Made by a program: the position numbers and the translations under genes
Assembly (NCBI RefSeq): GCF_000712055.1
Contig: NZ_JOOA01000001.1
Coordinates: 496,001-560,000 of the forward strand
DNA length: 64,000 nucleotides
Source of the DNA: Ruminococcus sp. HUN007
Lineage (GTDB): Bacteria; Bacillota; Clostridia; Oscillospirales; Ruminococcaceae
Direction of reading: 5' to 3'
Notes under the pieces: model-generated
What the model saw: only the letters and a program-made list of their open reading frames with translations
The model's database searches: none
What the model was told of the DNA's origin: nothing
In this document: in pieces, positions 45,437 through 64,000 of the stretch
How positions within the stretch are numbered: position 1 is the stretch's first letter
Layout of the letters: each line of letters opens with the position of its first letter

Positions 45437-45464
45437 AACGGGTACCGCAAATGCAGTACCCGTT
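45437..45464 (-). terminator. Hairpin after the 17-kb operon, possible terminator
   Basis: AACGGGTAC (45437-45445) and GTACCCGTT (45456-45464), a perfect 9-bp stem 36 bases beyond the last stop. The U run is weak. Confidence 0.55.
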
Positions 45465-45499
45465 TGAAGATTAAATATCTCGAATTTGATCCTCTGATC

Positions 45500-47776
45500 T
45501 TAATCAGCTATCCCGGCGAATTTTTCAAACTCTTTTACCGGCATTGGTTTTGAGAAGTAATAGCCCTGGAAGAGCATACAGCCCATGTCGGAAAGGGTGC
45601 TGAACTGAGCCCGGGTCTCGACGCCTTCGGTGAGGGCGACTATTCCGAGGTCCTTGGTCAGGGAGATAACGTTGTGAACGATTATCTTTGCCTTTTCGCT
45701 GGTCTTGTCCCTGTCGAGAAATTTCATGTCGATCTTTAGTACATCGACCGGCATATCCTTGAGCATGTTGAGTGATGAATAACCGCTTCCGAAATCGTCC
45801 ATTTCAACGATAAATCCGGATTCACGGAATTTTTCGAGCATGGCCATTCGTTTTTCAGCGTCATTGATCATGAATGACTCTGTTATCTCGATCCTGAGTT
45901 TTTCCGGCTCAATTCCGAATTCATTTACAAACGAGGTTATCTTTTCATAAACGTCGATGTAGTAGAAATCCTTCGGTGAAATGTTCACTGAAATGAACAG
46001 GTCGGAACCTGCCTTTTTCCAGCGTGAAAGTATACTGCAGGCCGAGCGCCACATATGCTGGTCCACTTCGGCAATGAGTCCGTTGCGTTCGAATGCAGGT
46101 ATGAAACTGCACGGAGGGAGGAAACCAAGTTCCGGATGCTCCCATCTTGCAAGTGCTTCTGCACCGACTATTTTTCCGTTTTCGTCCGCAATAGGCTGAA
46201 GATACGGACATACCTGCATGTTTTCTATGGCTTCGCCCAGCTGTGATGAGAGTTTCTGTTCCATCAGCAGCTTTTCGCGTATAGCAGCGTCGTAAAAGGC
46301 AATGTGTCCGCGTATATCGTCGCTTGTCACGGTAAGTGCAAGAAGTGCTCTGTCAAACAGAAGCGAAATATTGTTTTCACCGTGTTCCGCCTCACATACG
46401 CCCACATTTATGAGAATGTGATATTCCGCTTTGTAGTTGTGTATCATGAAATTCGTCAGAATTTCCTCAATATATTCAGGCTTCCATTCCTCACGCGGCA
46501 TGCAAACGCCGAATGCTGCGCCTATAAGTCTTCCGTAAATACACCGTCTGGAAAGATTGTTCTGTATCCAGGACGCAATGTGCTTCATTGCCTGGTCACC
46601 GAATTCAACGCCAAAAATGTCATTTACCACATTGAAATTCTTTACGTCGACGTACATGATCAGGTATTCAGTATCAGTATCGTTTTCAAGTCTTTCGGAA
46701 ATGCATGTAAAGAGATATTCACGCGTATACAGACCGGTCATCGGATCATGTGTGGCAGCGTACATCTCACGTTTCATACGGTTCTGTTCTTCGGTAACAT
46801 CTGAAATACGAAGATATGTTCCAAGGGACTTTCTTTTTTCATCCAGAGCCTTGTTTTCCTCAAGAGTATAGTAATGTGCATCATCACCGTTTCCGACTAT
46901 ACGCTGAACGCATCCGGTGTCATTTTCACTGCCGGGATTCCTGAAGAGTTCCATAAGAGCGGGTACTGCCTTTTCAACGTTATCTTCATCGACTCCGGTA
47001 AGTTCAAGACCGGCATCGTTTGCCCAGATACACTTTCCTGCCGGATCGAAAATGAAAAGTGATTCATTCATTCCTGATACGATGCGGGAAAGCATACGGT
47101 CAAGCAGCCTGTACGGCCGGTAGTGAAGCGAGAAGAAATAGATGAGTATACCCAGGGCCCCGTATCCGAGCATGGAACGGTCAATCGGTGAATCGGACAT
47201 AAGATATAATCCCTGCCACAGTCCAACGAATATGACCACGTATGACAGCGCGGTGTAGCGCTCACGGTAGATCTTAGGCATTCCGGATGCTGTCTTAAGG
47301 AATATGACAACCACTCCGACCACTATGGAATAGGCGACAAGCCTGTGATATGTCTGGCCGATATACGGTTCAAGCTTCCAGTAGACAGCTCCTTCATAGT
47401 CCACCGCTTTCAGATCAAAAGCATGGCCTGTAAAAGGATTAAGCATGAACTGTATGACATCGACGGCAAGCGGTATATAGACTAACCGCGGGGTACTCAT
47501 AGAATTGTTTCTTGTTTTGCAGTACTCCACCGTAAACCGGGTAAGAGTCAGTACCACGAGGTCTACACCGAGAAAATAAATATAGCTTCCTATAAGCGAA
47601 AGAATTTTCTGATGTGAACCGATGATAATAAGATTTCCCAGCAGAGGCGGTATAATGGCTGAATTAAGTGCTGCTACATAGCGTCCGATCGGCTTGCCCG
47701 AATGTCTCGCCCTGTAAACACACACTAACTGTGCGATAATTACAACTGTGAAAATAAATGAAAATACAGAACGCAC
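45500..47776 (-). CDS. Membrane EAL-domain c-di-GMP phosphodiesterase with degenerate GGDEF
   Basis: Start GTG 47776, with GGAGG upstream; 758 residues. An N-terminal membrane-sensing region (about 1-235) has some seven hydrophobic segments. A PAS domain (about 235-340, ESLFIFDPAGKCIWANDAGL) precedes a GGDEF fold (about 345-500; MTGLYTREYLF) whose active site reads RLIGAAFG where GGDEF should be, so it cannot make c-di-GMP. The EAL domain (about 510-755) is intact: AEALARWEH, NISPKDFYYIDVYE, EITESFM, EMDDFGSGYSSL and EGVETRAQ with QGYYFSKPM. Hence predicted phosphodiesterase, with the GGDEF half perhaps a GTP sensor. It follows a GGDEF cyclase gene by 22 bases and is last in the long operon. 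Confidence 0.9.
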   Translation of the reverse strand: MRSVFSFIFTVVIIAQLVCVYRARHSGKPIGRYVAALNSAIIPPLLGNLIIIGSHQKILSLIGSYIYFLGVDLVVLTLTRFTVEYCKTRNNSMSTPRLVYIPLAVDVIQFMLNPFTGHAFDLKAVDYEGAVYWKLEPYIGQTYHRLVAYSIVVGVVVIFLKTASGMPKIYRERYTALSYVVIFVGLWQGLYLMSDSPIDRSMLGYGALGILIYFFSLHYRPYRLLDRMLSRIVSGMNESLFIFDPAGKCIWANDAGLELTGVDEDNVEKAVPALMELFRNPGSENDTGCVQRIVGNGDDAHYYTLEENKALDEKRKSLGTYLRISDVTEEQNRMKREMYAATHDPMTGLYTREYLFTCISERLENDTDTEYLIMYVDVKNFNVVNDIFGVEFGDQAMKHIASWIQNNLSRRCIYGRLIGAAFGVCMPREEWKPEYIEEILTNFMIHNYKAEYHILINVGVCEAEHGENNISLLFDRALLALTVTSDDIRGHIAFYDAAIREKLLMEQKLSSQLGEAIENMQVCPYLQPIADENGKIVGAEALARWEHPELGFLPPCSFIPAFERNGLIAEVDQHMWRSACSILSRWKKAGSDLFISVNISPKDFYYIDVYEKITSFVNEFGIEPEKLRIEITESFMINDAEKRMAMLEKFRESGFIVEMDDFGSGYSSLNMLKDMPVDVLKIDMKFLDRDKTSEKAKIIVHNVISLTKDLGIVALTEGVETRAQFSTLSDMGCMLFQGYYFSKPMPVKEFEKFAGIAD

Positions 47777-47798
47777 AGTATTCGCCTCCTTTCGATTT

Positions 47799-49121
47799 CT
47801 ATTTTGCAGCAGATTTGCATCTGATCTTGTTTTCGTACATAAGCTTGTCGGACCGTTCGAACACATCCTGAACACGCAGATCCATATCCGGATCAAATTC
47901 AGAAATGCCTGCAGCAAACAGTACCAGACCGTTTGTTTTACTATTCTCAAGGGTGCTGAACATCTGCTCCATAAGGTCACTCCGGCAGTCATAGTCCCTG
48001 CCTTTCAGGATAACGGCAAATTCATCGCCGCCTATCCTGAACACCGGACTGTGAGAAAATGCATTGCATATAACCGTACTTGCCCGCCTTATGTATTCAT
48101 CACCCGCCTTGTGTCCCAGGCTGTCGTTGATATCCTTCAGTCCGTTTACATCACATATCACTATTGCGAAAGGCGGCTGACAGGATTTTTCTATCTGCCT
48201 GTCAAGATCAGCTTCTGCCTCAACATAGGCATGCTTGCTTTTGACTCCTGTAAGAGTATCCTTGCCGACAAGTTCAACAGCATTGTTGTAGTCAAGCTCC
48301 ATACGCTTGATTTTGTCGATATTCGATACCGCAATGATAATATGGTCCGAGTCCTCGGCTGCACGCACAGCGTACAGAGCCATATACTGCGGGTTATCAT
48401 CGATCATGAGCCGGTAGGTCAGATTAACGTGTCCGAAAATCCTTATGGCATTAAGAAGGTTTTCCTTTTTCAGTGCGGTGTACATCATGGACCTGTCGCC
48501 TTCGTAAACGGAGGTCTTCATGTTTTCCTCGCACTCCTCAAAGAACGAATCACCTGAAGTGCCATGCTTAACCCATGAATACTTCGCGCTTGTACTGTAC
48601 TCGGTGTAGTAGTTGGTCAGCACATTCACGTGGTAAATTACAACGTACTGCTGTGCCAGAGCAGTGGCAATATCGCTGAAGGTCCTGATCTCATTCTCCA
48701 TTTCCTTTTCGTGCCGCATCTGCCTGTCAACGTTCTGAACGCCGATTATTATGCTATGGTCAGTGTATGAGCGTATTGTCTTGAGCGAATAGTAACACGG
48801 CACACCGTCTATGACAAGACGGTAACCAAGCGTAAATGACTTTCCTGCCGCAAGTGCTTTCATAACGTTGTCACGGCTGAAAGTTTTTAAAAAGTTTGCC
48901 AGGTCTTCCTTGTATACAAGTTTTTCCGCATTTCCCGGAACATCATCGTAAAAATTCTTTCCGCTCGAAGCTATTGTGAGTTCCTTGTTTTCACCGCTCG
49001 GAACATATTCCACATAACTGTCATCCTCTGCATCGATAACGTACAGGCTGGTATAGTCGTCAGCCAGTGCCAGAGCAAGGCTTGCAAATGACAGTGATTT
49101 TCCTTTGTCTGTATCATTCAT
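47799..49121 (-). CDS. PAS-like/GGDEF diguanylate cyclase
   Basis: Start ATG 49121, preceded by AGAGGG; a GTG at 49151 is possible but lacks a site. 440 residues, no membrane helix. Two related sensor repeats of about 125 residues (SFASLALALADDYTSLYVID... and TFSDIATALAQQYVVIYHVN...) each contain YxxYxxxS-type segments and look like tandem PAS-like domains. The C-terminal GGDEF domain (about 280-435) has DTLTGVKSKHAY, ICDVNGLKDINDSLGHKAGD and an intact active site FRIGGDEFAVIL, so it should make c-di-GMP from two GTP. It pairs with the EAL gene immediately downstream and lies 26 bases after the zinc-ribbon gene. Confidence 0.9.
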   Translation of the reverse strand: MNDTDKGKSLSFASLALALADDYTSLYVIDAEDDSYVEYVPSGENKELTIASSGKNFYDDVPGNAEKLVYKEDLANFLKTFSRDNVMKALAAGKSFTLGYRLVIDGVPCYYSLKTIRSYTDHSIIIGVQNVDRQMRHEKEMENEIRTFSDIATALAQQYVVIYHVNVLTNYYTEYSTSAKYSWVKHGTSGDSFFEECEENMKTSVYEGDRSMMYTALKKENLLNAIRIFGHVNLTYRLMIDDNPQYMALYAVRAAEDSDHIIIAVSNIDKIKRMELDYNNAVELVGKDTLTGVKSKHAYVEAEADLDRQIEKSCQPPFAIVICDVNGLKDINDSLGHKAGDEYIRRASTVICNAFSHSPVFRIGGDEFAVILKGRDYDCRSDLMEQMFSTLENSKTNGLVLFAAGISEFDPDMDLRVQDVFERSDKLMYENKIRCKSAAK

Positions 49122-49147
49122 ATTCTCATCCCTCTGTTTTAATACGA

Positions 49148-49996
49148 TCACATGCGCGCTGCTCTTGCCTCCTTAAGCAGGCGGTCATACCTGATAAGAG
49201 CAAGATGCGGATCGTCAAAGATAACTGCCGAATCATCAGCAAATGAGCTCAGGGTCATGTTATCCCCGTTTCTCGCGCGGAACACCATGTATTCCATAAA
49301 TTTCTCGTAACGTGAGTCAATCACCCTTTTTACTTCATCGAAAAAGCCGTGCTCCCTGGTAAAAGGTCCGGTAACACTTATTCCGCCGAAAGGCTGATAG
49401 TCATAGTTAATAAAATAGCGTTCCGAAAACCTGTCCTCTTCAGTAAGCCTTTCTTCGTCATACACTTCAGTTTTCGTCTTGGTGAGCACACCGTCGCCGC
49501 GTTTCACAAAAGCGTGGAACATACGGCGGTCATTTTCAAATCCAAGTGAAACAAAAGCACGTTCAAAGCTCTTTCTCATAAGCTCAAGTTCGGAAAGTTC
49601 AAGATTCTGAACAAACTTTATTTTCGGACTTACAAAAGGAGTTTTCGTAATAACTGAATTTCCGTCAGGCTGGTTTCCAAGAATAAAACGCACACTGAAG
49701 TCTACTGAACCGGTTTTCTCAAATCCGAGATATTCGTAGAAAACCTCCCCGTCTGTCAGGGAAAACTGCGTATTTCTTACCGCATCATCCTTTTCCTGAG
49801 GCATTATAAGGTCCTTAAGATGAATATCTTTAAAGTCCGGTACCGTACGCGGATAAACAAGCTCTCTTCTGCCTGCAAGGGAGTCTTCGGAAACGTCCTC
49901 AAACTTAAGCAGCGCACCGCAGTCCGGACACTTTGCATCCCGTATTTTTCTGGTGTACGGTCTGCCTTTGCATTTTTCGCAGTAGTATACTTCCAT
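49148..49996 (-). CDS. Zinc-ribbon hypothetical protein (related N-terminus to the protein at 61064)
   Basis: 282 residues. The N-terminus MEVYYCEKCKGRPYTRKIRD, then AKCPDCGALLKFEDVSEDSL, is a four-Cys zinc ribbon that matches the first 50 residues of the protein at 61064-62059 almost position by position, up to SLAGR. The rest (about 55-282) is unrelated: a region with EYLGFEKTGSVDFSVRFILG and FGGISVTGPFTREHGFFDEV, mixed alpha/beta and soluble. Not recognised. It overlaps by one base the gene before it, placing it near the end of the operon. Probably a scaffold or adaptor within the same apparatus. Confidence 0.72.
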   Translation of the reverse strand: MEVYYCEKCKGRPYTRKIRDAKCPDCGALLKFEDVSEDSLAGRRELVYPRTVPDFKDIHLKDLIMPQEKDDAVRNTQFSLTDGEVFYEYLGFEKTGSVDFSVRFILGNQPDGNSVITKTPFVSPKIKFVQNLELSELELMRKSFERAFVSLGFENDRRMFHAFVKRGDGVLTKTKTEVYDEERLTEEDRFSERYFINYDYQPFGGISVTGPFTREHGFFDEVKRVIDSRYEKFMEYMVFRARNGDNMTLSSFADDSAVIFDDPHLALIRYDRLLKEARAARM

Positions 49997-51153
49997 CAGA
50001 GTGTCACCTCCATGAGTTCACTGTAGAGAAACATTACTGATGCCCTGTCGTCGGAAAGCTTTACGGCCGGTGTTATGTCACTGAGTTTCCGTTCTTCCTC
50101 TCCCTCACGCAGGAAAATGTATTCTGTAAAGTCCGGAAGCTTTTCACCCTTTATTATCTGCATGAAACTTCTCTTCTGTTCCTTCGGCGGATGATATTCG
50201 AGTATCAGTTTCTTCCCTGAAAACTCCGCTGTAAGCTCACTGCCGTAAGGAACAGCTTTTCTCCTTGACTTTTCATCAGTGCCGTTTCGTGCAAGATATT
50301 CACAGACCGACTGGTACATTCTGAAAAGCTCTTCAAGCTTTATTTCGCTTCCCGTCTCCCTTTCGTAGCTCTCATAGGCTATACTTCCCGTACCGGGGCT
50401 GTTGTCAGGACGGCACAGCATGAAACGGTACTTAAGTCTTCCCTCCGTCGTCTTTGTGATGCCTGCGTAAGGAACCAGCGTGCCGAAATCAGCTCCGGTG
50501 TTTTCCGGCTCAGGATCGGCAGGTATTTCGGTGCATTCATCCTCTGCAAAGAAAACATTTATTTTCACTTCATCGTTTTCTGAAGAATAGTCATAAAGAC
50601 TTTTTTGCTGATCCCCGCAGACAAACGAAAACGTACGTGAAGTTCTTTCAAGGGATGCTTTCATGGTCCTGAACCATTCCTTCTGCGGGAAAACATATTT
50701 TCCGGGAACTATGTCTGCCTTAAGGCTTACAGGATCAGGCTTTGCTTCCCATCCGTAATCTGAGATATACTGATCATAGCAGGTACGAGAAGCACCGCTC
50801 ATCATTGCCAGCGCATCAGGGATTATTTTTCTCAGATCTTCGGTGTCACTGCTTTTTACGACAAAACCTTCGGTGGAACAGATAGGTCTTCCGAACTCAT
50901 CCTCACCGCATATATGACAGAAACGGCACAGCATGCTTATCCTGCGTCCGCTGATGAACATGAAGCTGTCTGCTGTATTTTCAAGTACGTTCACCCTGTC
51001 CTCGGGGAGAACATCACGTATCTTCATAATAAAGCTCACTGTTTTTCTGTACTCGCGGTATTCCTCAGTATAGCTTTCAAGCCATTCAGGAAGATACATA
51101 TCAAAATAGTCATGCGTCCTTGTTCTTCCGTATAAAAAAACATCGGCATTCAT
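49996..51153 (-). CDS. Hypothetical operon protein with a Cys-pair motif
   Basis: 385 residues from ATG 51153, with AAGGAGGTGA ideally placed. No homologue is recognised. Near residues 80-95 CRFCHICGEDEFGRPIC carries four Cys and one His, suggesting a small metal site. The remainder is mixed alpha/beta and soluble, with an Asp/Glu-rich stretch (AEDECTEIPADPEPENTGAD) and a C-terminal part ending MFLYSELMEVTL. It overlaps the zinc-ribbon gene by one base, and starts 16 bases after the GTPase gene. Part of the 17-kb operon; function unknown. Confidence 0.65.
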   Translation of the reverse strand: MNADVFLYGRTRTHDYFDMYLPEWLESYTEEYREYRKTVSFIMKIRDVLPEDRVNVLENTADSFMFISGRRISMLCRFCHICGEDEFGRPICSTEGFVVKSSDTEDLRKIIPDALAMMSGASRTCYDQYISDYGWEAKPDPVSLKADIVPGKYVFPQKEWFRTMKASLERTSRTFSFVCGDQQKSLYDYSSENDEVKINVFFAEDECTEIPADPEPENTGADFGTLVPYAGITKTTEGRLKYRFMLCRPDNSPGTGSIAYESYERETGSEIKLEELFRMYQSVCEYLARNGTDEKSRRKAVPYGSELTAEFSGKKLILEYHPPKEQKRSFMQIIKGEKLPDFTEYIFLREGEEERKLSDITPAVKLSDDRASVMFLYSELMEVTL

Positions 51154-51169
51154 CTGCAGAGTCACCTCC

Positions 51170-52201
51170 TTATCCTGAAACTGCACTTATTCCTCCGCTT
51201 TCCGGCCTTACCTCACATACGAGGCTGTCGGAAACGCGGAGACTGTTGTACGGTATTCGTATGAACCGCAGCACGACATCGCTCTCCTCGAGCTGCGTTT
51301 TAAGTATTTTCATCCTGTTTCTGTATTCACGTGACATCTTCGTCAGAACAGATGCATTTTCCATGTCACTTATCCTTAAGTGAAGAGCTGTCACCTCTTC
51401 GCTGACAGTCCTGTAAATGCTGTAGAAAAGCACGCTGTCTATGCCGTACGGAACTATTTCAGCATCGGGCGTTATCCGGTTTGTCACCGGATCAACGCAG
51501 TTCCTGCCCACTGCTGATGTGCGTATTATGCCATAGGTCCAGCCGTTTCTTTCTATTATCCTGACAGTAGTCTCAAAGGCGTGCCTTATTCTGTCGGCAA
51601 GGAGCTCACTGTCTCCGGTCACCTCAGGTGAATCATCCTTGGTGAGCACGAACAGTACAGTCATCTTTTTGTTCATGAACTGGTTCGTGTTGAAGAAAGT
51701 GTTTATATCGTCACTTCCGAGTGCGGCACTTATCTCGCCTGCTGTTTCAGCCCTGCTCAGTCTTATTGCATCGGCGAATATCAGAAGCACATTGCTTGCA
51801 AGCAGCTCGTTTCTTACATCCTTAACTTCATCGCCGGACCGCTCGTTTACCAGATTACCGACGAAACCTCCCTTGTAGTCGATAAAGCTCACGCTGCAAA
51901 GCGGCACGGACGTACTGTATGTGTCGTCAAAGAGATCAAGCATGTACTTTTTCGTGTTCTCGGTGCTTACCGAAGTGAAATTCCTGTTGTTTCTGATGGA
52001 ATAACGCCGGACATCACCTATGCTGGTCTCGGACATGTCATCCGCCTGATAAGGCAGTATTTTGAAAAGATGGCTTCTGTCATCGTTGCGGCTGTCCTTT
52101 ACCTCTATGTTTCCTGAAATGAAGGTATCGCATATTCCCGACAGGAACGCAGTCTTGCCGGATCCGCTGACGCCTATCATTGATATTTTTATATCCTGCA
52201 T
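51170..52201 (-). CDS. Small GTPase-like P-loop protein
   Basis: 343 residues. G1/Walker A is ISMIGVSGSGKTAFLSGI (residues 7-24). A G3-like DxxG is in SFIDYKGGFVGN, and G4 is FVLTKDD (TKxD). A SAVG-type G5 candidate is in IRTSAVGRN. This set indicates a TRAFAC-type GTPase resembling the double-GTPase/gliding-type NTPases found in bacterial conflict operons. The C-terminal 90 residues form a helical region. ATG 52201 follows GGAGG and overlaps the AAA+ gene by 13 bases. It is presumably the regulatory switch of the operon system. GTPase call good; partner unknown. Confidence 0.8.
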   Translation of the reverse strand: MQDIKISMIGVSGSGKTAFLSGICDTFISGNIEVKDSRNDDRSHLFKILPYQADDMSETSIGDVRRYSIRNNRNFTSVSTENTKKYMLDLFDDTYSTSVPLCSVSFIDYKGGFVGNLVNERSGDEVKDVRNELLASNVLLIFADAIRLSRAETAGEISAALGSDDINTFFNTNQFMNKKMTVLFVLTKDDSPEVTGDSELLADRIRHAFETTVRIIERNGWTYGIIRTSAVGRNCVDPVTNRITPDAEIVPYGIDSVLFYSIYRTVSEEVTALHLRISDMENASVLTKMSREYRNRMKILKTQLEESDVVLRFIRIPYNSLRVSDSLVCEVRPESGGISAVSG

Positions 52202-54862: not shown

Positions 54863-54896
54863 TTTTCTCACCTCTTTCGGACGGGGTCCGTACCCT

Positions 54897-56324
54897 TTAT
54901 ACTCTTTTCACCGGCTGCGGATTTTCTATCATTGTCTTTCTTCCGGTGTCGGCAGCATCCATGCCTCTTGTCTCTTCACTGCACTTAAGCGAAGCATCCG
55001 CTACATTACGGCAGCTGCCCATAAGCTCATTTACTATCGCTTTACGGTACTGTTCACGGTTTTCCTCACTGCTCTTATTGCTCGCAAGGATCAGTTCAGT
55101 CTGAAGCTCTGCGTTCTCATCTTCATACGGAAGCAGTGAGATGGTCAGTTCCTCACCGGTCAGCTGACATACATACTTTCTTTCACCCGACTTTGAAGGA
55201 TCACCGTCGGTATAGTTTGTCTCCTTAAGGGTAAACCCTTTTTCCCTGAGCAGACCGAAGATAACCTTTTCCGCTTCAACTCTGTTAAGGCTGTAGAACA
55301 TACAGTAGAAGGCATCGGCAGTGGCTTCATTTATCTCAGCGATAAGACTGCTCATTTCCTCAGTTTTTCTTTTAAGTTCGGAAGAAGGCACATCGTCACC
55401 GGCACTCACTGTGTATTCCCTTATTTTCGTGTATCTGCCTGTAAGCTCCGCATATCTGCTCTTTATGAACTGAGTAAGGTCGGCTGTAACTTCCCTTTCA
55501 GTTTCATCCGGCATTTTAAACTCCGCTTCCTTCAGAGAAGCAAGAAGGCCATCCGCCTCTTCCAGCAGATATGCAAGCGTAACTCTGTAGAATTCACGTT
55601 CATTGTCTTCAGCATCAGATCTGTACATATCCATAAAGATCTGGGTGACAGCTGATGAAGCGAGGCTGACAGCCGACTGGTAATTTCCTTTTTCCAGATC
55701 ACTTTCCGCCTCGTGAATGTATTTTTCAGCAGTTTCAGACTCTGTCCCTTCAAGAAGTGTACGTGCATCTTCAATGAGGCTCGCAGCTCTTTCACGGGCA
55801 CGCTCGTCACGGTCAGCAATGTCCGCTTCAATTTCCGCGATTCCGGAAAGAATACTCTCCTTAAGTCTTGTCATACGCATTGAAATTTCTGAATTGCTGC
55901 GGTTGATCACTTCACTGTAGTTCTTCCTGAACTGCGTGTGTATCCTTTCGATACTGTCAAGAGTATTTTTTTCCGAAGCCTTTAACAGCGCACGGAAATC
56001 ATCAGCTGCACTGCTGTCACCGAAGCTTTTTACGGTTTCCGTATGCATGTCATTTATATTTTTCAGCATCTGTTCGGTGCTCCGGTAAAGTGCCTCGCGC
56101 TGGTTATTCATGTTCTCCGTAACATCACGGCCGAGACTGCCAAGTTCATCGTTCAGTGCATTCAGTTTTTTCTCTTCCACAGCCTTACTGTATTTATGAA
56201 CTGCTATGACTCCGGCAAACGCGACCCTGCCCGCTGACTTTGCTATATGTTCGGCTGCATACATGACTGACAGTGTCATTACAACAGGTGTGAAAAAAAT
56301 CGATCCCCTGCTTATACCGCTCAT
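54897..56324 (-). CDS. Coiled-coil protein with N-terminal hydrophobic segment
   Basis: 475 residues. Residues 8-45 (IFFTPVVMTLSVMYAAEHIA) are hydrophobic and may anchor it in the membrane. Residues 50-330 are almost wholly helical with coiled-coil character (KKLNALNDELGSLGRDVTEN; MRMTRLKESILSGIAEIEAD). A globular domain occupies about 345-450 (FYCMFYSLNRVEAEKVIFGL, CQLTGEELTISLLPYED). Its C-terminal domain appears distantly similar to that of the next-upstream protein (56356). Not recognised. It lies 25 bases before the AAA+ gene and 31 after the other coiled-coil gene. Probably a structural component of the operon's complex. Confidence 0.68.
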   Translation of the reverse strand: MSGISRGSIFFTPVVMTLSVMYAAEHIAKSAGRVAFAGVIAVHKYSKAVEEKKLNALNDELGSLGRDVTENMNNQREALYRSTEQMLKNINDMHTETVKSFGDSSAADDFRALLKASEKNTLDSIERIHTQFRKNYSEVINRSNSEISMRMTRLKESILSGIAEIEADIADRDERARERAASLIEDARTLLEGTESETAEKYIHEAESDLEKGNYQSAVSLASSAVTQIFMDMYRSDAEDNEREFYRVTLAYLLEEADGLLASLKEAEFKMPDETEREVTADLTQFIKSRYAELTGRYTKIREYTVSAGDDVPSSELKRKTEEMSSLIAEINEATADAFYCMFYSLNRVEAEKVIFGLLREKGFTLKETNYTDGDPSKSGERKYVCQLTGEELTISLLPYEDENAELQTELILASNKSSEENREQYRKAIVNELMGSCRNVADASLKCSEETRGMDAADTGRKTMIENPQPVKRV

Positions 56325-56355
56325 GATCCCACATCTCCTTTCCGCTGATGACCGT

Positions 56356-57795
56356 TCAGCGGATCATCCGGCGTCTGTTAAGTGCCAGTTCCTTTCTTCT
56401 CTGTTCATCAGCTCTGTTTTTCAGTTCATTTAAAACCGTATCAGTATCGGAAAACTCTTTTTCACAGTTGCTTTCCGCAATCACTGTCAGTTGTCCGGTT
56501 ACGCTCTGAAGCCCCGTCAGGAAGTTTTTCTCGGTGGCCTTAAGGTTTTCAGGAGTTCCTGAACCGTTGTGTTCAAAATAAACGCCCGCTGCATTTATTA
56601 CCGTTGTCCTGTCCGGACATACCGGAAAGATACAGACAGTGATCTTTTTGCCCGGCTCTGCAGCTTCGATAATGTATTCCTTCCTTATATCACCGTCGCG
56701 GAAACCCTTTGAAACAATATCACAGCAGCGTTCAGTCTTCATGTAGTTTATGATTTTCTTCGACAGATCTGCTGCCCGTTCAAAGGATGCCGCAAAACCG
56801 GTGTGAATGTACGACCTCATTGTACATATTTCCTTGTGAAGTGCAGTCAGGCTGTCAAGGTTTTCGGAAAGCTCCTCAAACGAAACGCTTCTTCCCTGCC
56901 TTCTCTCACTCTTCAGAAATGAAGTGATTTTTTCTTCTCTGGTTCTGCCTTCGCATTCATGGATTTTCTCTGTAAACTCCGCAAAACTCTTCGCCTTTTC
57001 CGCTGCAGGTGAAAACCTGTTTTCACACCAGAAATCAAAGGTTTCAGCTTCCCGTTCCGAAGTACGAACCAGCTCCTTTTCAAAAGAATCTGTTTTCACT
57101 CTGCAGAATTCATCGGATATCAGAAAATCATTTACAAGAGCTGTGTAGGATTCAAGCTGGGTGTAGTAGCGTATCCACTGCTCCATGTTCTTCTTCATCC
57201 GCTCATCCATCAGCGCTATCTGAAATCCGGTTCCGGATGAAAGAGCCATGCATGATTCGTAAAATCCGGCACGAAAATCTGACTTTACCGATTCCAGCTG
57301 CATAAGAAGAGCATCCGCCGCTCCCGGTTCAAATGATTCGTGGGGGTATTTCTCCGAAAATTTCTGAAACTCGTCGTAGACATTTTCCATTCGCCTGCGG
57401 GCTTCGTTTTTCATTGTCTCCTCACGCTTTTCCAGCTTTCCCGAAAGTCCGGAGATCTCGCCTGCAAGCTCCTTTTCAGTCTTCTTCATCAATACCTGCA
57501 TTTCATCGTTTTCAGCCTTCAGCTTTGCATATTCGGAACTTATCTCATCTATTTTCTTCCCCAGCTCATCATTCAGAGCTGCCGTGTACTTTTCAAGTTC
57601 AGTTTCAAACTCGCCCCTCAGCGATGCATCATGGTCAGCAAGCTTTTCCTTCATTTCCTGCTGCACCTGTGCAAGGCGGTCATTCAGCGATTTTTCGTAC
57701 TCACTTCTTATCTCGTCCATGGCGGCAAGATTTTTCTTAAACTGACCGCGCATGTTTTCAAGTTTTCTGTTAAGAATAACTGTCTGTGCACTCAT
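56356..57795 (-). CDS. Coiled-coil protein
   Basis: 479 residues, soluble. The first 150 residues form a long coiled coil (EYEKSLNDRLAQVQQEMKEK, then KYTAALNDELGKKIDEISSE). The middle is helical, and the C-terminal part (about 355-450) is a small alpha/beta domain (ITVCIFPVCPDRTTVINAAG, FLTGLQSVTGQL). The C-terminal domain may be related to that of the protein at 54897. It overlaps the preceding gene by 4 bases. No enzymatic motif; scaffold role inferred from structure. Confidence 0.68.
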   Translation of the reverse strand: MSAQTVILNRKLENMRGQFKKNLAAMDEIRSEYEKSLNDRLAQVQQEMKEKLADHDASLRGEFETELEKYTAALNDELGKKIDEISSEYAKLKAENDEMQVLMKKTEKELAGEISGLSGKLEKREETMKNEARRRMENVYDEFQKFSEKYPHESFEPGAADALLMQLESVKSDFRAGFYESCMALSSGTGFQIALMDERMKKNMEQWIRYYTQLESYTALVNDFLISDEFCRVKTDSFEKELVRTSEREAETFDFWCENRFSPAAEKAKSFAEFTEKIHECEGRTREEKITSFLKSERRQGRSVSFEELSENLDSLTALHKEICTMRSYIHTGFAASFERAADLSKKIINYMKTERCCDIVSKGFRDGDIRKEYIIEAAEPGKKITVCIFPVCPDRTTVINAAGVYFEHNGSGTPENLKATEKNFLTGLQSVTGQLTVIAESNCEKEFSDTDTVLNELKNRADEQRRKELALNRRRMIR

Positions 57796-58643
57796 TTAAG
57801 TTCACCTGCGCGTTTTTCCGCCATTGCGGAAATATCATCCGAAATTTCATCCGCTGCGGATATCAGCCTTTCAAGTTTTTCCTTCACGGTCTCAAAACCG
57901 TTATCGTTTCTGTAATGATCAAGAATTCCACTGAACACCTTCAGCTCTGTTAAAAGTTCATCTGAAGTCTTTTTGTTTTCCTTTATCTCATTCAGATTTT
58001 CTGAAAGGACTGCATGTCTGGACTCAAGTTCGTTTATTTCTGCTATGCTCTTTTCGATCTCTGAGTTTTCTTCACGCAGGGAAATGAGTTTTTCGTTTAT
58101 TTCCTGCTTTCTTTCGCCTAAATTCCGGTTTTCTTCCTCATACCGTAAAAGTTCTTCTTCAAGTTCCTTAATTTCTTCTTCATTCTTTCTGGTTTCGCCT
58201 TTTATTTCACAGACAGCTTCAGCGAGTTCATCTCGGCCGTCATCACTGCCCGTGATAAATTCGACAAATTCCAGTTCTGATCTGCCTTCAGTATCGGAAG
58301 GCTTTATTATAAACCCGGAAGCACTGCACTCTCCGGCCTGTACGGTCTCGCTTCCGCTTCTTATCTCAAAGGTCAGTTCAAGACTGGTTTCAAAAAAGAA
58401 TGCTGAGGCTTCAGAACGAAATGCCGCTCCGTTTTCCTGCTTTACAGAAAACTTCAGCTTTGCTCCGGTGTCGTTCACCGACGGGCTTATACACTGGATA
58501 AGAGGACTGAAACGTGCAAGACTGTTTTCCCTGAAACCTCCGGCCACAGACCTCTGAAAAACCGTTACCCGTGATTCACCGGAAATGATCTTTTCAGCAG
58601 CTTCACCGCCGATTATAAGAATACTTTCATTATTTATCGTCAT
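57792..58643 (-). CDS. Beta-domain + coiled-coil protein
   Basis: 283 residues. The first 125 residues are beta-rich (SILIIGGEAAEKIISGESRV; FFFETSLELTFEIRSGSETV). Residues 135-275 form a continuous, strongly charged coiled coil (KNEEEIKELEEELLRYEEEN). It has no signal or membrane segment. GGAG precedes the ATG at 58643; it follows the kinase-lobe gene by 15 bases and overlaps the next by 4. A partner-binding subunit is a reasonable guess, but no family is recognised. Confidence 0.68.
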   Translation of the reverse strand: MTINNESILIIGGEAAEKIISGESRVTVFQRSVAGGFRENSLARFSPLIQCISPSVNDTGAKLKFSVKQENGAAFRSEASAFFFETSLELTFEIRSGSETVQAGECSASGFIIKPSDTEGRSELEFVEFITGSDDGRDELAEAVCEIKGETRKNEEEIKELEEELLRYEEENRNLGERKQEINEKLISLREENSEIEKSIAEINELESRHAVLSENLNEIKENKKTSDELLTELKVFSGILDHYRNDNGFETVKEKLERLISAADEISDDISAMAEKRAGELK

Positions 58644-58658
58644 AACTCCATCTCCCGG

Positions 58659-59535
58659 TCAGATTAAACCTGCATTACGAGTGCCTGATTCTGCTCCGGA
58701 GAGTGACACATCCGTAAATTCAGCAGTAAGTTTTCCGTTTTTGATTCCAAGTTTTATTTTTATCTTCTGTCCGCCGGCAGAAGATGTTTTCGCAAGTCCC
58801 ACCGGTATGATCCTGTCACCGTAAACACTTGAAGGATTCGAGTATGCTGCATCGTCACGGTGTCTTCGTGAAACGGCTATGGTAAATTCACCTTTTTCAT
58901 CTGCCGGAACAACATAGCTTTCACTCCTGCCGTCATGGAAAAGCAGAGGTATAAATTCTATCCTTCCCGACCGTCTGTTGTTCAGGATTATACCGTAGTC
59001 ATAGTCCGGAAGGAGTGCATATTCATCTTCGCTGTTCCTGTAATCTGATGAATTCTCTGCGGATCCTGACCGGATCTCCGTATCATCAGCATTATTGTCC
59101 GGTTCTTTGAAAGAGGTAGTTTCTTCAGACTGCCAAGCATTTTCCATACCGGCAGAATCAGTTTTTTTCAGCGTCCTGCCTGATCTCATACTCTGAAAGC
59201 CGGCTGAGGAAATAATCAGGAGATATTCTTCCGTCTCTTCTGAAAACCGTGGCGTCCTTAAGAAGTCCGGCAAATTCCGTGTACTCATCCGGTATGTATT
59301 TTTCAATGATGAGCGAAGAATCCGAATCAGGATCGGCCATCATAAAGCACTCATCCTCCGGTACTCCGGAAACGTCAAAATAGTCCCTGCCGCTTATCGC
59401 ATAAAAGAGCCTCAGACCGAGAGACCAGACCTCAGAGGCTTCCGTATGCTCTTCACCGAACATAAACTCCTGCGGGTCTTTATAAATACGGGAATTTTCT
59501 TCCCCTGTTATCATCTGGCTGAATTTTTTCCCCAT
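58659..59535 (-). CDS. Protein-kinase C-lobe fragment fused to a beta domain, frameshifted in an A7 run
   Basis: Residues 1-120 look like the last part of a Ser/Thr protein kinase: after the activation-loop-like RIYKDPQEFMFGEEHTEAS comes EVWSLGLRLFYAISGRDYF, the subdomain IX motif (typically SDVWSLGxxLYEMxxG), then helices. The N-lobe, the HRD loop and the DFG motif are absent, so catalysis is impossible; this is a pseudokinase-like binding module. The frame stops at 59158; removing one A from the seven-A run (plus-strand T7, 59162-59168) gives AEKTDSAGMENAWQSEE and continues to 58659, about 291 residues. The C-terminal part is a beta-rich domain (YGIILNNRRSGRIEFIPLLF). It starts 10 bases after the Hsp70 gene. 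Confidence 0.68.
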
Positions 59536-59545
59536 AATGCATCAC

Positions 59546-61057
59546 CTAAATCTCAAAACTTACCTCAATACTCCTGTTATGATCGTTAAGATCCTCAGCA
59601 GTTACCGTAAGCACGCCCTGACTGTCGAAGCGGAATACCGTTTCTATCTTCTGCTTACCGGTATCCATCGGATTTATATCATTGAATACAAACTCTCCGG
59701 CCTTCCTGTATTCGAGATTGCCGAAGTCCTCCGGATCGCCGCTGTACTCATAGACCTCAAACCTGAGCTCGGTTTCAAATCTTCCTGTATTGGTGTAAAC
59801 ATGTCTTACCTCAAAATCATCGTCAACGTCAGTTCCCGCCGGAATGACCGGATCCATGTACTTTCCGTTTCTGCCGGTGCAGATCATTCCCAGCGAATTC
59901 AAGAGCTTGTTTACAATGTGGATATTCTCATCGCACGCCTTTATGGCTGCGCCCCTTGCAATCACTGTAAGGCAGCTGTCACCCGTGCATACATCAGAGG
60001 CAGATACAAAAGTACTGCCCTCAAAAGTGGATGCGATAAACTGCTTAAGGTACGGGTCTGCGCTCATACCGCCGACAAATATAACATGATCGATCTTTCG
60101 CTCCATTACCTCATCGGATACGATCAGCGAAGTAAGTTTCTCGTATATCTCATCAGCCGCCGAAAGATATTCATCATAGCCTATATCTGCACGGAAATGT
60201 CCTCCGCGGCTGCAGTTTTCTCTTTTTTCACAGACAGCACAGACCTCATCAAGATCCATTACCGCCCTTTCTGAAGGGGAGGCGTACAGCATCTTTTTAA
60301 GCTTTTCAGATGCTTCCTCTATCACTCTTCTTGTTTTTTTTCTTGCCGCACCGAAAACGGCCTCCTCATCGGTCAGATCCTGGCCAGAGCAGTCTCTCAG
60401 CTGTTCGAGAAGAAGCGAGGAAATGACTCTGTCAAGGTCACGTCCGCCGAGATGACGGTTTCCGTCTGCGACAGAAACAACAAAACCGGTCACACCGCTC
60501 CTACCTGTAAGCTCAACAAGGGCAGCATCCACCGTGCCACCGCCGAAGTCTATGACGTAGACGGTGTCTCCGGGTCTGAAACTGTCGTCATTGAAGGCAA
60601 GAGCAGCCGCAACCGGTTCTTTGATTATTTCTATCATTCCAATGCCTGCACGTTTGAGCGCAGACGCAGTACGGCGTATCTGGTCCTCGCCGAATTTGGC
60701 AGGAACAGTGACTACCGCATCAAATTTCTTTTCATCAGGGAAGCGTTCAGACAGAGTCATCCTTACTTTTTTCAGGATCTCAAAAGCGATATCTTCAGCT
60801 CTGTATCTTCTGCCTTCCTTTTCCCAGGTCTTTTTTCTGTCGTCCATGTATATCTTTGACTGGCAGACAAATGATGAGGGATCTTCAGAAGCACGCACTT
60901 CGGCCTCGCTTCCGACGATCACTTTTCCCCTGTCAAAAAACACACATGACGGAAGAAAAGTTCTTCCGTCATCGAACTCAAGAAATTCAATATTTCCGTA
61001 TATATTCATCCATCCGGCCACCGTATTGGTGGTGCCGAGGTCTATACCGATTTTCAT
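59546..61057 (-). CDS. Hsp70/DnaK-like ATPase with Cys-rich insertion
   Basis: 503 residues, shorter than DnaK (about 610-640). The actin-like ATPase domain (1-370) has phosphate-1 MKIGIDLGTTNTVAGW, EIIKEPVAAALAF, phosphate-2 YVIDFGGGTVDAAL and adenosine motif DHVIFVGGMSADPYL. An insertion near 270-290 (CAVCEKRENCSRGG) has three Cys and could bind a metal, which is unusual for Hsp70. The beta substrate-binding domain is present (390-500; FVFNDINPMDTGKQKIETVF), but the helical lid is missing. So it is a dedicated Hsp70 paralogue, not the housekeeping chaperone. It starts 6 bases after the zinc-ribbon membrane gene and precedes the kinase-lobe gene by 10. Confidence 0.88.
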   Translation of the reverse strand: MKIGIDLGTTNTVAGWMNIYGNIEFLEFDDGRTFLPSCVFFDRGKVIVGSEAEVRASEDPSSFVCQSKIYMDDRKKTWEKEGRRYRAEDIAFEILKKVRMTLSERFPDEKKFDAVVTVPAKFGEDQIRRTASALKRAGIGMIEIIKEPVAAALAFNDDSFRPGDTVYVIDFGGGTVDAALVELTGRSGVTGFVVSVADGNRHLGGRDLDRVISSLLLEQLRDCSGQDLTDEEAVFGAARKKTRRVIEEASEKLKKMLYASPSERAVMDLDEVCAVCEKRENCSRGGHFRADIGYDEYLSAADEIYEKLTSLIVSDEVMERKIDHVIFVGGMSADPYLKQFIASTFEGSTFVSASDVCTGDSCLTVIARGAAIKACDENIHIVNKLLNSLGMICTGRNGKYMDPVIPAGTDVDDDFEVRHVYTNTGRFETELRFEVYEYSGDPEDFGNLEYRKAGEFVFNDINPMDTGKQKIETVFRFDSQGVLTVTAEDLNDHNRSIEVSFEI

Positions 61058-61063
61058 GATCCA

Positions 61064-62059
61064 TTATCCCCTTAAACGCATTATTATGTGAATGAAACGC
61101 CATACTACATAAACGATCACACAAGCAATAATGATGTTTAAAGATGATGTTACCAGAATCGCAAAAATATCGGAAAAGCATTCTGACACTGTAAAACCGG
61201 AAAACGAACTGAGCTTGTGCTTCATAAAAAACAATACTGTCATCATGAATGAGATTCCTGCGACAGAATTGAAGTTGAACCCGATGTGCGTTCTGAGTCT
61301 GTTGGCATAAACCAGAAGAGACGTGAAAACAAAAGCTATGCTGAACATACTTGCAGCAGCAGTTGCCGAACCGATAAATTCAGTCAGTATATGACGTATT
61401 GATTCAAGTATCTCTCCGGACTTTGCCGGCTCAATGAAGTACATGAACACCGAGTAGAAAAAGTACAGTACGAAAACTGTTACCATAAAGGCAGCAGGCG
61501 AAGAACTGAATCTGATCCTGGTATCGTCGTTACGGATCCAGGTTGCAAAGAATATATCATTGTCTTCCTCCGAAAAATTCCTCAGAGCCATTCTTCCCCT
61601 GACTGCATGAGTGAATCCGCTGCAAATGGTGGCACCCTCTCCGGCATAATCACCGTAAATGCGTACATGTACGCGGTCATTACCCGTCTCATCTTCACGC
61701 GGACAGATGTCAAATGAATAAAGAGTGTCACTGAAACTCTGCCCGTACATGATGTAGTGCCTGATCTTCGTGAAAAGTCCGCGGCGCTCTCCCGTATGCG
61801 GTCTTATGTTTTCGACCGTACCGCAGAGCATACGCTGTTTCCGGTATTTATCAGGAACTGACAGTTGTTTTGCCTTTCCTGTACCCTTGACCGGAGCCTT
61901 TTTCTTTCCCTTTGTCTCAAGTTTTGGTCTTCCTGCAAGACTTGCTTCGGAAACTTCCGCAAACTGCAGACGTGCTTTGCAGACCGGACATTTCGTACCA
62001 GCCTTAGTGCTTTCTGTGTACGGTTTTCCCTCGCATTCGGGACAGAAATAGATCTCCAT
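61064..62059 (-). CDS. Zinc-ribbon membrane protein (related N-terminus to the protein at 49148)
   Basis: 331 residues from ATG 62059, with GGAGGGG upstream. The N-terminus MEIYFCPECEGKPYTESTKA, then TKCPVCKARLQFAEVSEASL and AGRPK, is a four-Cys zinc ribbon shared with the protein at 49148. A basic linker (KGKKKAPVKGTGKAKQLSV) follows, then a soluble region (about 75-170, RVHIYGDYAGEGATICSGFT), and four predicted membrane helices (about 178-200, 220-245, 255-275, 300-325). It would anchor the complex at the membrane with the ribbon in the cytosol. Not recognised as a named family. First structural gene after the XRE regulator, 41 bases away. Confidence 0.75.
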   Translation of the reverse strand: MEIYFCPECEGKPYTESTKAGTKCPVCKARLQFAEVSEASLAGRPKLETKGKKKAPVKGTGKAKQLSVPDKYRKQRMLCGTVENIRPHTGERRGLFTKIRHYIMYGQSFSDTLYSFDICPREDETGNDRVHVRIYGDYAGEGATICSGFTHAVRGRMALRNFSEEDNDIFFATWIRNDDTRIRFSSSPAAFMVTVFVLYFFYSVFMYFIEPAKSGEILESIRHILTEFIGSATAAASMFSIAFVFTSLLVYANRLRTHIGFNFNSVAGISFMMTVLFFMKHKLSSFSGFTVSECFSDIFAILVTSSLNIIIACVIVYVVWRFIHIIMRLRG

Positions 62060-62100
62060 TAAAACCCCTCCGTTAATCCGGCATCATCATGAACGAATCA

Positions 62101-62379
62101 TCACTTCTTGACTGTTATGTAGTCGATGAGTTCATCTGTAAGGATCTCAAACAGCTTGAGAAGTGCTTCAGTATTCTTGTTTACTGAGAAGATGAAGAGA
62201 AGTGAAAGGAAAGTATTCCATGTCATTGTTCTCTGCTTCTTCTCGATAGCAAGGATCGTCTGTCTGCTCATGCCTGCAATATCAGCAAGCTCAGCCTGTG
62301 TGATCCCCAGCTTAGCACGAAGCACTACAAGATTTTCTGTCATGCGTTCCACTAACAGTTCCTTTGTTTTTTCGTTCAT
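62101..62379 (-). CDS. XRE-family regulator heading the 17-kb operon
   Basis: 92 residues with one HTH: RAKLGITQAELADIAGMSRQ, TILAIEKKQRTMTWN, then a C-terminal helix. Closely related to the protein at 35445-35726; the recognition helices are nearly identical, so both may bind the same operator. It sits directly before the zinc-ribbon gene behind the only strong promoter of the region, so it is probably a feedback regulator of the whole operon. A perfect palindrome ATTTGCAAAT lies in its leader. Confidence 0.88.
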   Translation of the reverse strand: MNEKTKELLVERMTENLVVLRAKLGITQAELADIAGMSRQTILAIEKKQRTMTWNTFLSLLFIFSVNKNTEALLKLFEILTDELIDYITVKK

Positions 62380-62434
62380 AATAAAACAACCCCTATCTTT
62401 TTACTAATATCATAAATGAGTAATTTGCATAAAA

Positions 62435-62444
62435 ATTTGCAAAT
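62435..62444. promoter_or_regulatory. Palindrome in the XRE leader, possible operator
   Basis: ATTTGCAAAT is a perfect 10-bp palindrome. A related AATTTGCAT (62422-62430) is 13 bases away. It lies just downstream of the promoter start point. No equivalent palindrome was found before the paralogue at 35445. Confidence 0.4.
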
Positions 62445-62465
62445 ATACCCGCCTTTATACTATGT

Positions 62466-62494
62466 ATTATACTACACTTCATGAAATGTGTCAA
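62466..62494 (-). promoter_or_regulatory. Consensus promoter of the 17-kb operon
   Basis: On the minus strand TTGACA (62494-62489), 17 bases, TATAAT (62471-62466). No other promoter of similar quality was seen in the gaps down to 45500, which are all shorter than 45 bases. Confidence 0.9.
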
Positions 62495-62787: not shown

Positions 62788-64000
62788 TCATGCCTCGCAG
62801 GAGAGCCAATCCGAAAGGGTTCTTTTTTCAGAATCAAATGATACTCCGATTTTGAACACTTTTCTGTTATCTGCTGAAAACGGAAGAGCATAGTCTTTAT
62901 CATCTATCTGTCTGAGGGCTGCTTCAGCAGTTTCATCTCGTTTGAATTCAAACAGATAAATAAATTTTTCTGTTTCCACTTTGCAGTCTATCCGCCCGCT
63001 GAACGTATGCATTTCACAAACCGTGTACTTACCGAGCAGTGTAAATACAAGATATATAACAGTCTGAAAATAATGTTCAAACGGTGCTTCATTTGAGGTA
63101 TATGTAATACTCGCAAAAAGAGCAGTAAGTACATTTCTTATGGAATCCAGATCTCCTTCTTCGACATAGCCTTCAAGAGTAAAAATATCCAGTCCGTTTG
63201 ATTCCGCTGCACTCGGAACATAATACGGCATCATACTGTTAAGGAATCCGTACTTTACCTCTTCGTTAGGAAACGAAAGAGTATAACGCTGAAGCCTTCT
63301 ATTGTATTCCGATATTGTAAGATAACCGCACTGATAAAGCAGAGGTGTAGGAGACAGTGAATCTCCGGTATAATCAAGAATAACACTTTCACTGGCGTAA
63401 ATTGTTTTATCCGAAAACTTACGTACATCAAAACTGTTGTTCCTGAGCATCTTAACAAGAAAAGTAGGTGAGCCGCTTTCAAACCAGTACGGTCTGAATT
63501 CATGAGCATAAAACGCATTTATAATGCTGAAAGGATTATAAACACCTTCAAAATCCGGATAAAAATGATATCCGTCATAAGTTTGTTTTAACTGTTTCCT
63601 GCATTCATCTATAGTGAGATCCTGTGATTTGGCAAGTAATTCAATATGTTCAGAAAAATATGTATTAAGTTCATTTTCAGTAATTCCGCACAAAGCTGAA
63701 AATTCTTTATTCAAAGAAATATCTATCAGCTGATTCAAGTCACTGAATATGCTTACCTTATGAAATTTAGTAACGCCGGTAATAAACACAAACTGAATGC
63801 AGGCATCACAGCTTTTCAGATTACTGAAAAATCCTTTGAACAGAGACTTGTTATGTTCCTGCAGTTCAGGATCATTTATAAGATCAAGCAAAGGCTTGTC
63901 ATATTCATCAACAAGAACAACACATCGTTTTCCTGTTTTTTCTTTCACTCTGACAAGAAGATTTTTAAACCTGGTTTCGACTGAAACGGCATCTGTTATA
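62788..64000 (-). CDS. AAA-ATPase-like / PD-(D/E)XK nuclease-like protein (5' end outside window)
   Basis: The frame is open through position 64000, so the N-terminus lies outside; about 403 residues are visible. KRCVVLVDEYDKPLLDL is the Walker-B-like strand of the AAA-ATPase_like (PF09820) family, followed by FITGVTKFHKVSIFSDLNQL and TYDGYHFYPDFEGVYNPFS. The C-terminal third has the PD-(D/E)XK_9 pattern: CEMHTFSGRIDCKVETEKFI, then YLFEFKRDETAE, where D and E-x-K would be the nuclease-like residues. Such proteins are abundant and often multi-copy in gut Bacteroidetes and Firmicutes; biological function is unknown. It probably has no link to the operon downstream, from which terminator hairpins separate it. 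Confidence 0.85.
   Translation of the reverse strand, partial: ITDAVSVETRFKNLLVRVKEKTGKRCVVLVDEYDKPLLDLINDPELQEHNKSLFKGFFSNLKSCDACIQFVFITGVTKFHKVSIFSDLNQLIDISLNKEFSALCGITENELNTYFSEHIELLAKSQDLTIDECRKQLKQTYDGYHFYPDFEGVYNPFSIINAFYAHEFRPYWFESGSPTFLVKMLRNNSFDVRKFSDKTIYASESVILDYTGDSLSPTPLLYQCGYLTISEYNRRLQRYTLSFPNEEVKYGFLNSMMPYYVPSAAESNGLDIFTLEGYVEEGDLDSIRNVLTALFASITYTSNEAPFEHYFQTVIYLVFTLLGKYTVCEMHTFSGRIDCKVETEKFIYLFEFKRDETAEAALRQIDDKDYALPFSADNRKVFKIGVSFDSEKRTLSDWLSCEA

Follow-up and report, generated by a model that had tools for sequence, protein, structure and literature searches.

Here we describe an operon from Ruminococcus sp. HUN007 in which an Hsp70, a kinase remnant, coiled-coil proteins, a tandem AAA+ ATPase and a GTPase are encoded one behind the other. 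The window, by which we mean the whole stretch of DNA that was analysed, is 64,000 nucleotides long (G000:C1:496001-560000) and comes from a genome of 4.2 Mb in four contigs; all operon genes lie on its minus strand. The core genes, g01 to g12, are co-inherited and tightly packed, and one conserved promoter-like site precedes them.

Layout of the operon and its control region

Fifteen open reading frames (ORFs) were read as coding, from 62379 down to 45500 (-), and these amount to 13 genes once two split pairs (g04/05 and g09) are joined. Neighbouring ORFs overlap or stand at most 41 bases apart, which agrees with the closely packed same-strand run reported in the initial annotation of this DNA, and the promoter it had called perfect does match at all 12 positions. 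The features are as follows.

62466..62494 (-): promoter TTGACA-N17-TATAAT, sigma-70 type, 12/12 match
62101..62379 (-): g01, XRE-type helix-turn-helix regulator of 92 amino acids (HTH_3, 8e-08)
61064..62059 (-): g02, N-terminal zinc ribbon (two CxxC) and three hydrophobic C-terminal segments, kept in 8/8 same-genus loci
59546..61057 (-): g03, lidless Hsp70 that has a nucleotide-binding and a beta substrate-binding domain (PF00012, 2e-47)
58659..59535 (-): g04/05, pseudokinase C-lobe fragment and a C-terminal domain that is beta-rich by eye; two ORFs in the assembly
57792..58643 (-): g06, N-terminal domain of no recognised kind and a coiled coil (by eye), 283 amino acids, with same-genus orthologues
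56356..57795 (-): g07, coiled-coil protein; hhalign against its divergent counterparts, 99.7%
54897..56324 (-): g08, long coiled coil; hhalign against its divergent counterparts, 99.6%
52189..54871 (-): g09, tandem AAA+ ATPase of SpoVK/CbbX/EccA type, about 890 amino acids (AAA and AAA_lid_6)
51170..52201 (-): g10, GTPase related to DO-GTPase2 (Pfam, 26.1 bits against a cut-off of 27)
49996..51186 (-): g11, predicted N-terminal longin-like domain, putative g10 regulator, directly behind g10
49148..49996 (-): g12, zinc ribbon and a domain related to the g11 C-terminus (hhalign 95.8%)
47799..49151 (-): GGDEF protein, appended, not core (PF00990)
45500..47992 (-): seven-transmembrane PAS-GGDEF-EAL protein, appended, not core (PF00563, PF00990, PF16927)

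Both promoter hexamers, TTGACA and TATAAT, are invariant in seven aligned same-genus upstream regions, the window's included (L041 and L049 lay outside the alignment). Promoter-like sites in the region come at chance number, 23 found against 25.5 expected, and the scan of the region therefore points to no strong internal promoter of sigma-70 type. The regulator g01 has an orthologue in seven of the eight same-genus loci, L041 being without one. Between the promoter and the XRE start, at about 62420-62447, lies an imperfect inverted repeat, TTTGCA...TGCAAA, whose right half recurs slightly altered in five of seven aligned loci and whose left half is less well conserved; it is possibly an operator for the XRE protein.

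Inheritance of the gene set as a unit

Within the genus, 8 of 11 genomes, the window's own included, have a relative of the GTPase, and so do 4 of the 197 genomes of the family sample, namely the window genome, one of the same genus and two weak cases (27% identity, and 22-35% in two pieces). A scan of named species genomes with an AAA+ alignment yielded 19 loci, 8 same-genus and 11 divergent; L035 and L049 were counted as same-genus by identity (81% and 69%), the divergent loci standing at 38-46%. The loci are recorded under Oscillospiraceae, Ruminococcus, Ruminiclostridium, Clostridiales or Clostridia. From g02 through the AAA+ gene the order is the same in all eight same-genus loci (with g08 split in L034), and g10-g12 then follow in six of the seven whose contig is long enough, with one additional gene between g11 and g12 in L036, L038 and L041. 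The exception is L035, where a Cas9 gene (L035:13034-17008) stands straight after the AAA+ gene, at the place of g10-g12.

In the divergent loci a related scheme is found. Typically a membrane protein, an Hsp70, a pseudokinase-Hsp70 fusion, a small radical-SAM protein, a coiled coil, a g07-like and a g08-like protein come first, and then the tandem AAA+, a CxxC/transmembrane (TM) protein, the GTPase, a second GTPase-like protein, a g11-like and a further protein. Here the GTPase lies behind the AAA+ gene in 9 of the 10 contigs that reach it (L039 is without it), a g11 relative is present in 9 of 10 contigs (not in L050), and the Hsp70 precedes the coiled-coil genes in 7 of the 8 that extend to that point (again not in L050, where the AAA+/GTPase pair stands alone near MoxR and vWA genes). 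The CxxC-plus-TM protein, dC8, has hydrophobic segments and occurs in 7 of 10 divergent loci. The small radical-SAM gene, found by clustering in eight divergent loci (e.g. L040:5650-6294) and matching Fer4_12 in all six proteins scanned, sits after the Hsp70 fusion and before the coiled coils; the window operon has none.

The profiles of g03, g07, g08, g10 and g11 match their divergent counterparts with a probability of 98.9-100%; g06 has no detectable homology to the gene of similar size at the same place in divergent operons (0.3%). The pairwise distances of six components are correlated, with r 0.86-0.98 when all loci are taken and 0.64-0.96 when the divergent ones are taken alone; these values carry no control for the species tree. 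By these comparisons the operon is one unit inherited together, kept in the genus, with a divergent version in other Oscillospiraceae and Clostridia. The initial annotation had proposed one unnamed, membrane-linked, NTP-driven system, and it gains support from the order kept from zinc ribbon to zinc ribbon in six of seven same-genus loci, and as a scheme in diverged genomes, as well as from the hydrophobic segments on g02, which speak for the membrane link; the word unnamed stands too, since no description of this gene set was found in the literature among the matches listed.

Farther afield, the AAA+ profile was found in 10 of the 341 genomes of the class search and 3 of the 348 of the phylum search, the window's own included in both. 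The flanks of the AAA+ matches were inspected at L069-L075 (7 of the 11 other class or phylum genomes) and at L068 (the other genome of the order search), and at E<=0.001 the only operon families found beside the AAA+ gene were Hsp70, in L073, and a GGDEF protein, in L075. In L073 (G647) the Hsp70 gene adjoins one that encodes four SpoVK-like AAA modules, with leucine-rich-repeat and Sel1 proteins encoded next.

The two cyclic di-GMP genes at the downstream end, which had at first been read as part of the system, do not share in this inheritance: of the six same-genus loci whose contig runs past g12, two (L033 and L034) have GGDEF and EAL genes behind the operon, and on that count they are lineage-specific neighbours. 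The hairpin placed at 45437-45464 exists as an inverted repeat, but it has no T run and is absent among the terminator-like sites of our scan. In the close relative G004 about 49 kb (window about -3806 to 45500; G000:C1 about 492-541 kb) are missing at the matching junction, and the EAL genes are directly followed by a gene matching window position -4681. Adjoining the operon, 39950-44662 (-) encodes a large protein with a sacsin-type N-terminus and an SF1 helicase; in PADLOC it matches TmtA (3e-47, residues 34-799) and, over the helicase part, MkoA, and it is a candidate defence gene. Upstream of the operon, 62788-63999 (-) encodes an AAA-ATPase_like / PD-(D/E)XK protein, of which the G008 copy, also upstream of the operon, is 98.5% identical.

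Chaperone, ATPase, GTPase and longin-like components

The Hsp70 g03, of 503 amino acids, aligns to positions 2-490 of the 599 of the HSP70 profile. The match stops where the alpha-helical lid remains unmatched, and the lidless Hsp70 of the initial annotation is thereby confirmed. The phosphate motifs of its nucleotide-binding domain (NBD) are kept, as is the beta substrate-binding domain; these and the other Hsp70 motif calls were made by eye in the alignment and judged by family knowledge. A cysteine motif, CxxC-x5-C, is seen in the NBD of the three genus sequences aligned and is not seen in the divergent Hsp70s aligned.

Behind it, g04/05 carries what is left of a kinase. The kinase profile matches C-lobe positions alone, 167-201 of 263 in g04 (E 0.17) and 161-258 in the L039 protein (E 4.1e-05), and the g04/05 profile matches the pseudokinase parts of the kinase-Hsp70 fusions from divergent loci (probability 77%) and of the L039 protein (89%). 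Neither the kinase N-lobe nor the catalytic HRD/DFG motifs were matched, the motifs are missing by eye in the divergent sequences, and the g04/05 family gave no Pfam match in the two genus members scanned. In the second Hsp70 of the fusions, the phosphate motifs are kept in L040 and L051 and lost in L045 and L047 (by eye, four of six fusions), and the L039 counterpart is shrunk to 520 amino acids with no HSP70 match. We infer that this series of fusions may record a chaperone turned scaffold.

The zinc-ribbon protein g02 is likely the membrane anchor. By profile it shows no detectable homology to the divergent proteins dN (0.7%) or dC8 (1.5%), and the likeness among them is one of position or architecture only. 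Over 47 residues its ribbon shares 51% identity with the ribbon of the g12 orthologue in L018. The two coiled-coil proteins g07 and g08 are distant paralogues (hhalign 93%), and in the model of g08 the N and C termini form one alpha/beta domain (AF2 pLDDT 69.6). For g09 the best NCBIfam family is spore_V_K (6.8e-51), its 172.8 bits lying far below the equivalog cut-off of 422.95; the AAA and AAA_lid_6 domains are common to g09 and the SpoVK, CbbX and EccA ATPases, from which g09 differs by its two AAA modules and a long N-terminus.

The GTPase g10 falls just short of the DO-GTPase2 cut-off, and those of L040, L041, L045, L047 and L048 also stay below it; two of the eight GTPases scanned reach it, that of L033 (28.5 bits), which is 94% identical to g10, and that of L051 (38.2 bits), which belongs to the divergent version. 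A genome-wide search of the window genome gave no DO-GTPase2 match at E<=0.001. At the Walker B/DxxG position all five genus GTPases aligned read DYKGG, so that the glutamate typical of DO-GTPases is missing from them, and all nine divergent ones read DYxGE; the DO-GTPases in L119, L120 and L130 carry DxxGE. By profile, the divergent GTPases match GAP1-linked DO-GTPases at 84%. The window has one GTPase. A second, weakly similar GTPase-like protein occurs by clustering in 6 of 10 divergent loci (and by position in L046), its profile matching the first GTPase at 93.7% and DO-GTPases at 3.5%.

Three operon proteins, g06, g11 and g12, are without a family assignment, and an effector might be among them. 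The N-terminus of g11 is predicted to be a longin-like domain, whose nearest folds are TagF, the top match, and the longins of GATOR, TRAPP and DENN proteins; at the level of sequence, a g11 profile of 38 sequences found no TagF or longin in the PDB at E<=1. The longin fold regulates small GTPases, and what is new here is this predicted domain directly behind a GTPase gene. A motif had prompted the idea that g11 might be GAP1; two GAP1 sets gave a profile probability of at most 1.5%, and the idea was rejected at sequence level. The C-terminal region of g11 is shared with g12.

A proposed machine, its rivals and the nearest known systems

We propose that the g01-g12 core would form one membrane-tethered assembly, in which a GTPase-longin switch steers Hsp70/AAA+ remodelling of a coiled-coil assembly, a reading to which we assign an even chance. 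The zinc-ribbon/TM protein g02 would anchor the complex and the DO-GTPase2-like g10 would be the switch, with g11, encoded right behind it, serving as GTPase-activating protein (GAP), guanine nucleotide exchange factor (GEF) or effector of g10 by analogy with MglB, GATOR1 and TRAPP. The switch would gate the tandem AAA+ ring of g09, which together with the Hsp70 g03 and the adaptor g04/05 would load, hold or disassemble a polymer or scaffold that g07 and g08, the paired coiled-coil proteins, would form. The adaptor would be a pseudokinase piece, the divergent relatives of which bear an additional Hsp70 that is often decayed, and g01 would adjust expression. The process served would most likely be an envelope-associated assembly rather than nucleic-acid defence. 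We favour this reading because gene order is conserved, component distances correlate and g11 has a predicted longin-like fold; because DO-GTPase2 scores pass the cut-off in two of eight GTPases and the divergent GTPases match GAP1-linked DO-GTPases; because g02 and dC8 bear hydrophobic segments; and because the Hsp70 motifs are kept in g03 and lost in some second Hsp70s. A bolder and more tentative form of the same proposal is that a Rag/MglA-like GTPase-longin membrane switch controls an engine, made up of Hsp70 and tandem AAA+, for building or taking apart the coiled-coil scaffold, the fusions being Hsp70s on the way to a non-catalytic scaffold.

Disaggregation by DnaK with ClpB offers a precedent for a protein quality-control machine, in which the Hsp70 would feed a tandem AAA+ unfoldase and the GTPase and longin would be localisation factors. 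Hsp70 and AAA+ do travel together here, and the G647 Hsp70 lies beside a four-AAA SpoVK-like gene; however, no GrpE and no J-domain match was found in the operon, the DnaJ zinc-finger match on the g02 ribbon is at chance level (E 0.21), the AAA+ is of SpoVK/CbbX rather than ClpB type, and the GTPase and g11 would be left unexplained, which makes this account unlikely.

The operon might instead belong to a branch of the GTPase-centric conflict systems that lacks GAP1, with its GTPase and chaperones setting the firing threshold for a defensive or suicidal response. In the portions of Kaur et al. (2020, PMC7159879) drawn on here, such systems comprise a DO-GTPase, GAP1 and an FNIII or GASH partner, and one theme has an Hsp70 with a second Hsp70 that lacks the peptide-binding domain. 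The DO-GTPase2-like GTPase, Hsp70, zinc ribbons, TM parts and kinase remnant recall the GAP1-N2 themes of those portions, as does the second Hsp70-bearing protein of the divergent version, and G186 has its AAA+/GTPase pair close to MoxR and vWA genes. Yet GAP1-M and GAP1-N2 had no match in the window genome (the GAP1-N1 model was left out of that genome-wide search), GAP1 had none at E<=1 in the operon proteins, hhalign of GAP1 N-termini against the g11 family stayed at 1.5% or below, and FNIII and GASH had no match at E<=1 in the operon ORFs, the presence of a GASH model in Pfam not having been checked. The first four GAP1-M contigs show no DO-GTPase neighbour by eye, two of them being shorter than 8 kb. 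PADLOC models at E<=0.01 gave weak matches only over eight operon ORFs (g01, g05-g08 and the GGDEF/EAL genes lay outside the scan), the best values being 1.1e-04 for the kinase piece, 6.4e-06 for the AAA+ halves and 0.0096 for the GTPase; no effector domain could be recognised by Pfam in the operon ORFs, the GTPase is present in 8 of 11 genus genomes and had no match in the plasmid collection, and the viral matches are generic AAA or Hsp70, among the matches listed. The defence role suggested earlier thus finds no support on present evidence, and the conflict-system account is unlikely.

We consider it quite improbable that the operon regulates a specific surface or secretion machine, an idea suggested by TagF, a repressor of type VI secretion, being the top fold match of g11, and by the kinase remnant, which brings to mind the control of type VI secretion by threonine phosphorylation and TagF in the part of PMC5995506 used here; against it, the likeness to TagF is one of fold only.

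Barely credible is a decaying operon with no present function, for although two window genes are frameshifted and g08 is also split in L034, frameshifts of the same type hit unrelated flanking genes, and both window genes are single ORFs in every same-genus locus with a whole copy.

The ORFs 53408-54871 and 52189-53448 are halves of the one AAA+ gene, which is a single ORF in the seven same-genus loci that hold it whole (the L049 contig stops inside it), and 59158-59535 and 58659-59306 are halves of g04/05, a single ORF of 262-310 amino acids in all eight. When the ORFs of G004 and G008 were compared with the window contig, 43 were full-length in one frame (operon genes and overlapping pieces counted), and outside the operon three flanking genes are split, relative to G004, at four single-base sites, three clearly in homopolymer runs. 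Because single-base frameshifts also hit flanking genes, sequencing or assembly error is the likeliest cause, and the breaks in the AAA+ gene and the kinase piece are likely assembly errors; for g04/05 the cause is less certain than for the AAA+ gene, the relatives' DNA being unaligned over part of the junction. Programmed frameshifting in the AAA+ gene was set aside in view of the comparable single-base differences in flanking genes.

Hsp70, AAA+, GTPase and a kinase remnant are joined here in one heritable operon of gut bacteria. If the membrane-tethered switch and remodelling engine that we prefer is right, the DO-GTPase-like family would gain, in a longin-type regulator, a partner other than GAP1 that can be tested, and eukaryote-like GTPase-longin logic would enter the chaperone biology of Firmicutes.

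Among known systems, longin or roadblock proteins such as MglB, GATOR1 and TRAPP act as GAP, GEF or effector for their GTPases. As in MglA-MglB, Rag-GATOR/Ragulator and TRAPP, the g10 GTPase gene is directly followed by the predicted longin-fold g11; unlike them, g10 is of another GTPase family and is coupled to Hsp70 and AAA+. TagF is the closest solved fold to the g11 N-terminus, from which it differs in that g11 has no sequence-profile match. With the DO-GTPase/GAP1-N2 systems, as far as the portions of PMC7159879 used here describe them, the operon has in common a GTPase close to DO-GTPase2, an Hsp70, zinc ribbons and TM components; its divergent version adds another protein with an Hsp70 part and, perhaps, a second GTPase-like protein. 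It differs from them in having no GAP1 or FNIII match and in the Walker-B glutamate that its genus GTPases lack; in their stead it has a tandem AAA+ of SpoVK-like type, the coiled-coil pair and a predicted longin-like protein. The operon may therefore work like a relative of the GTPase-centric systems, and we do not file it as a member.

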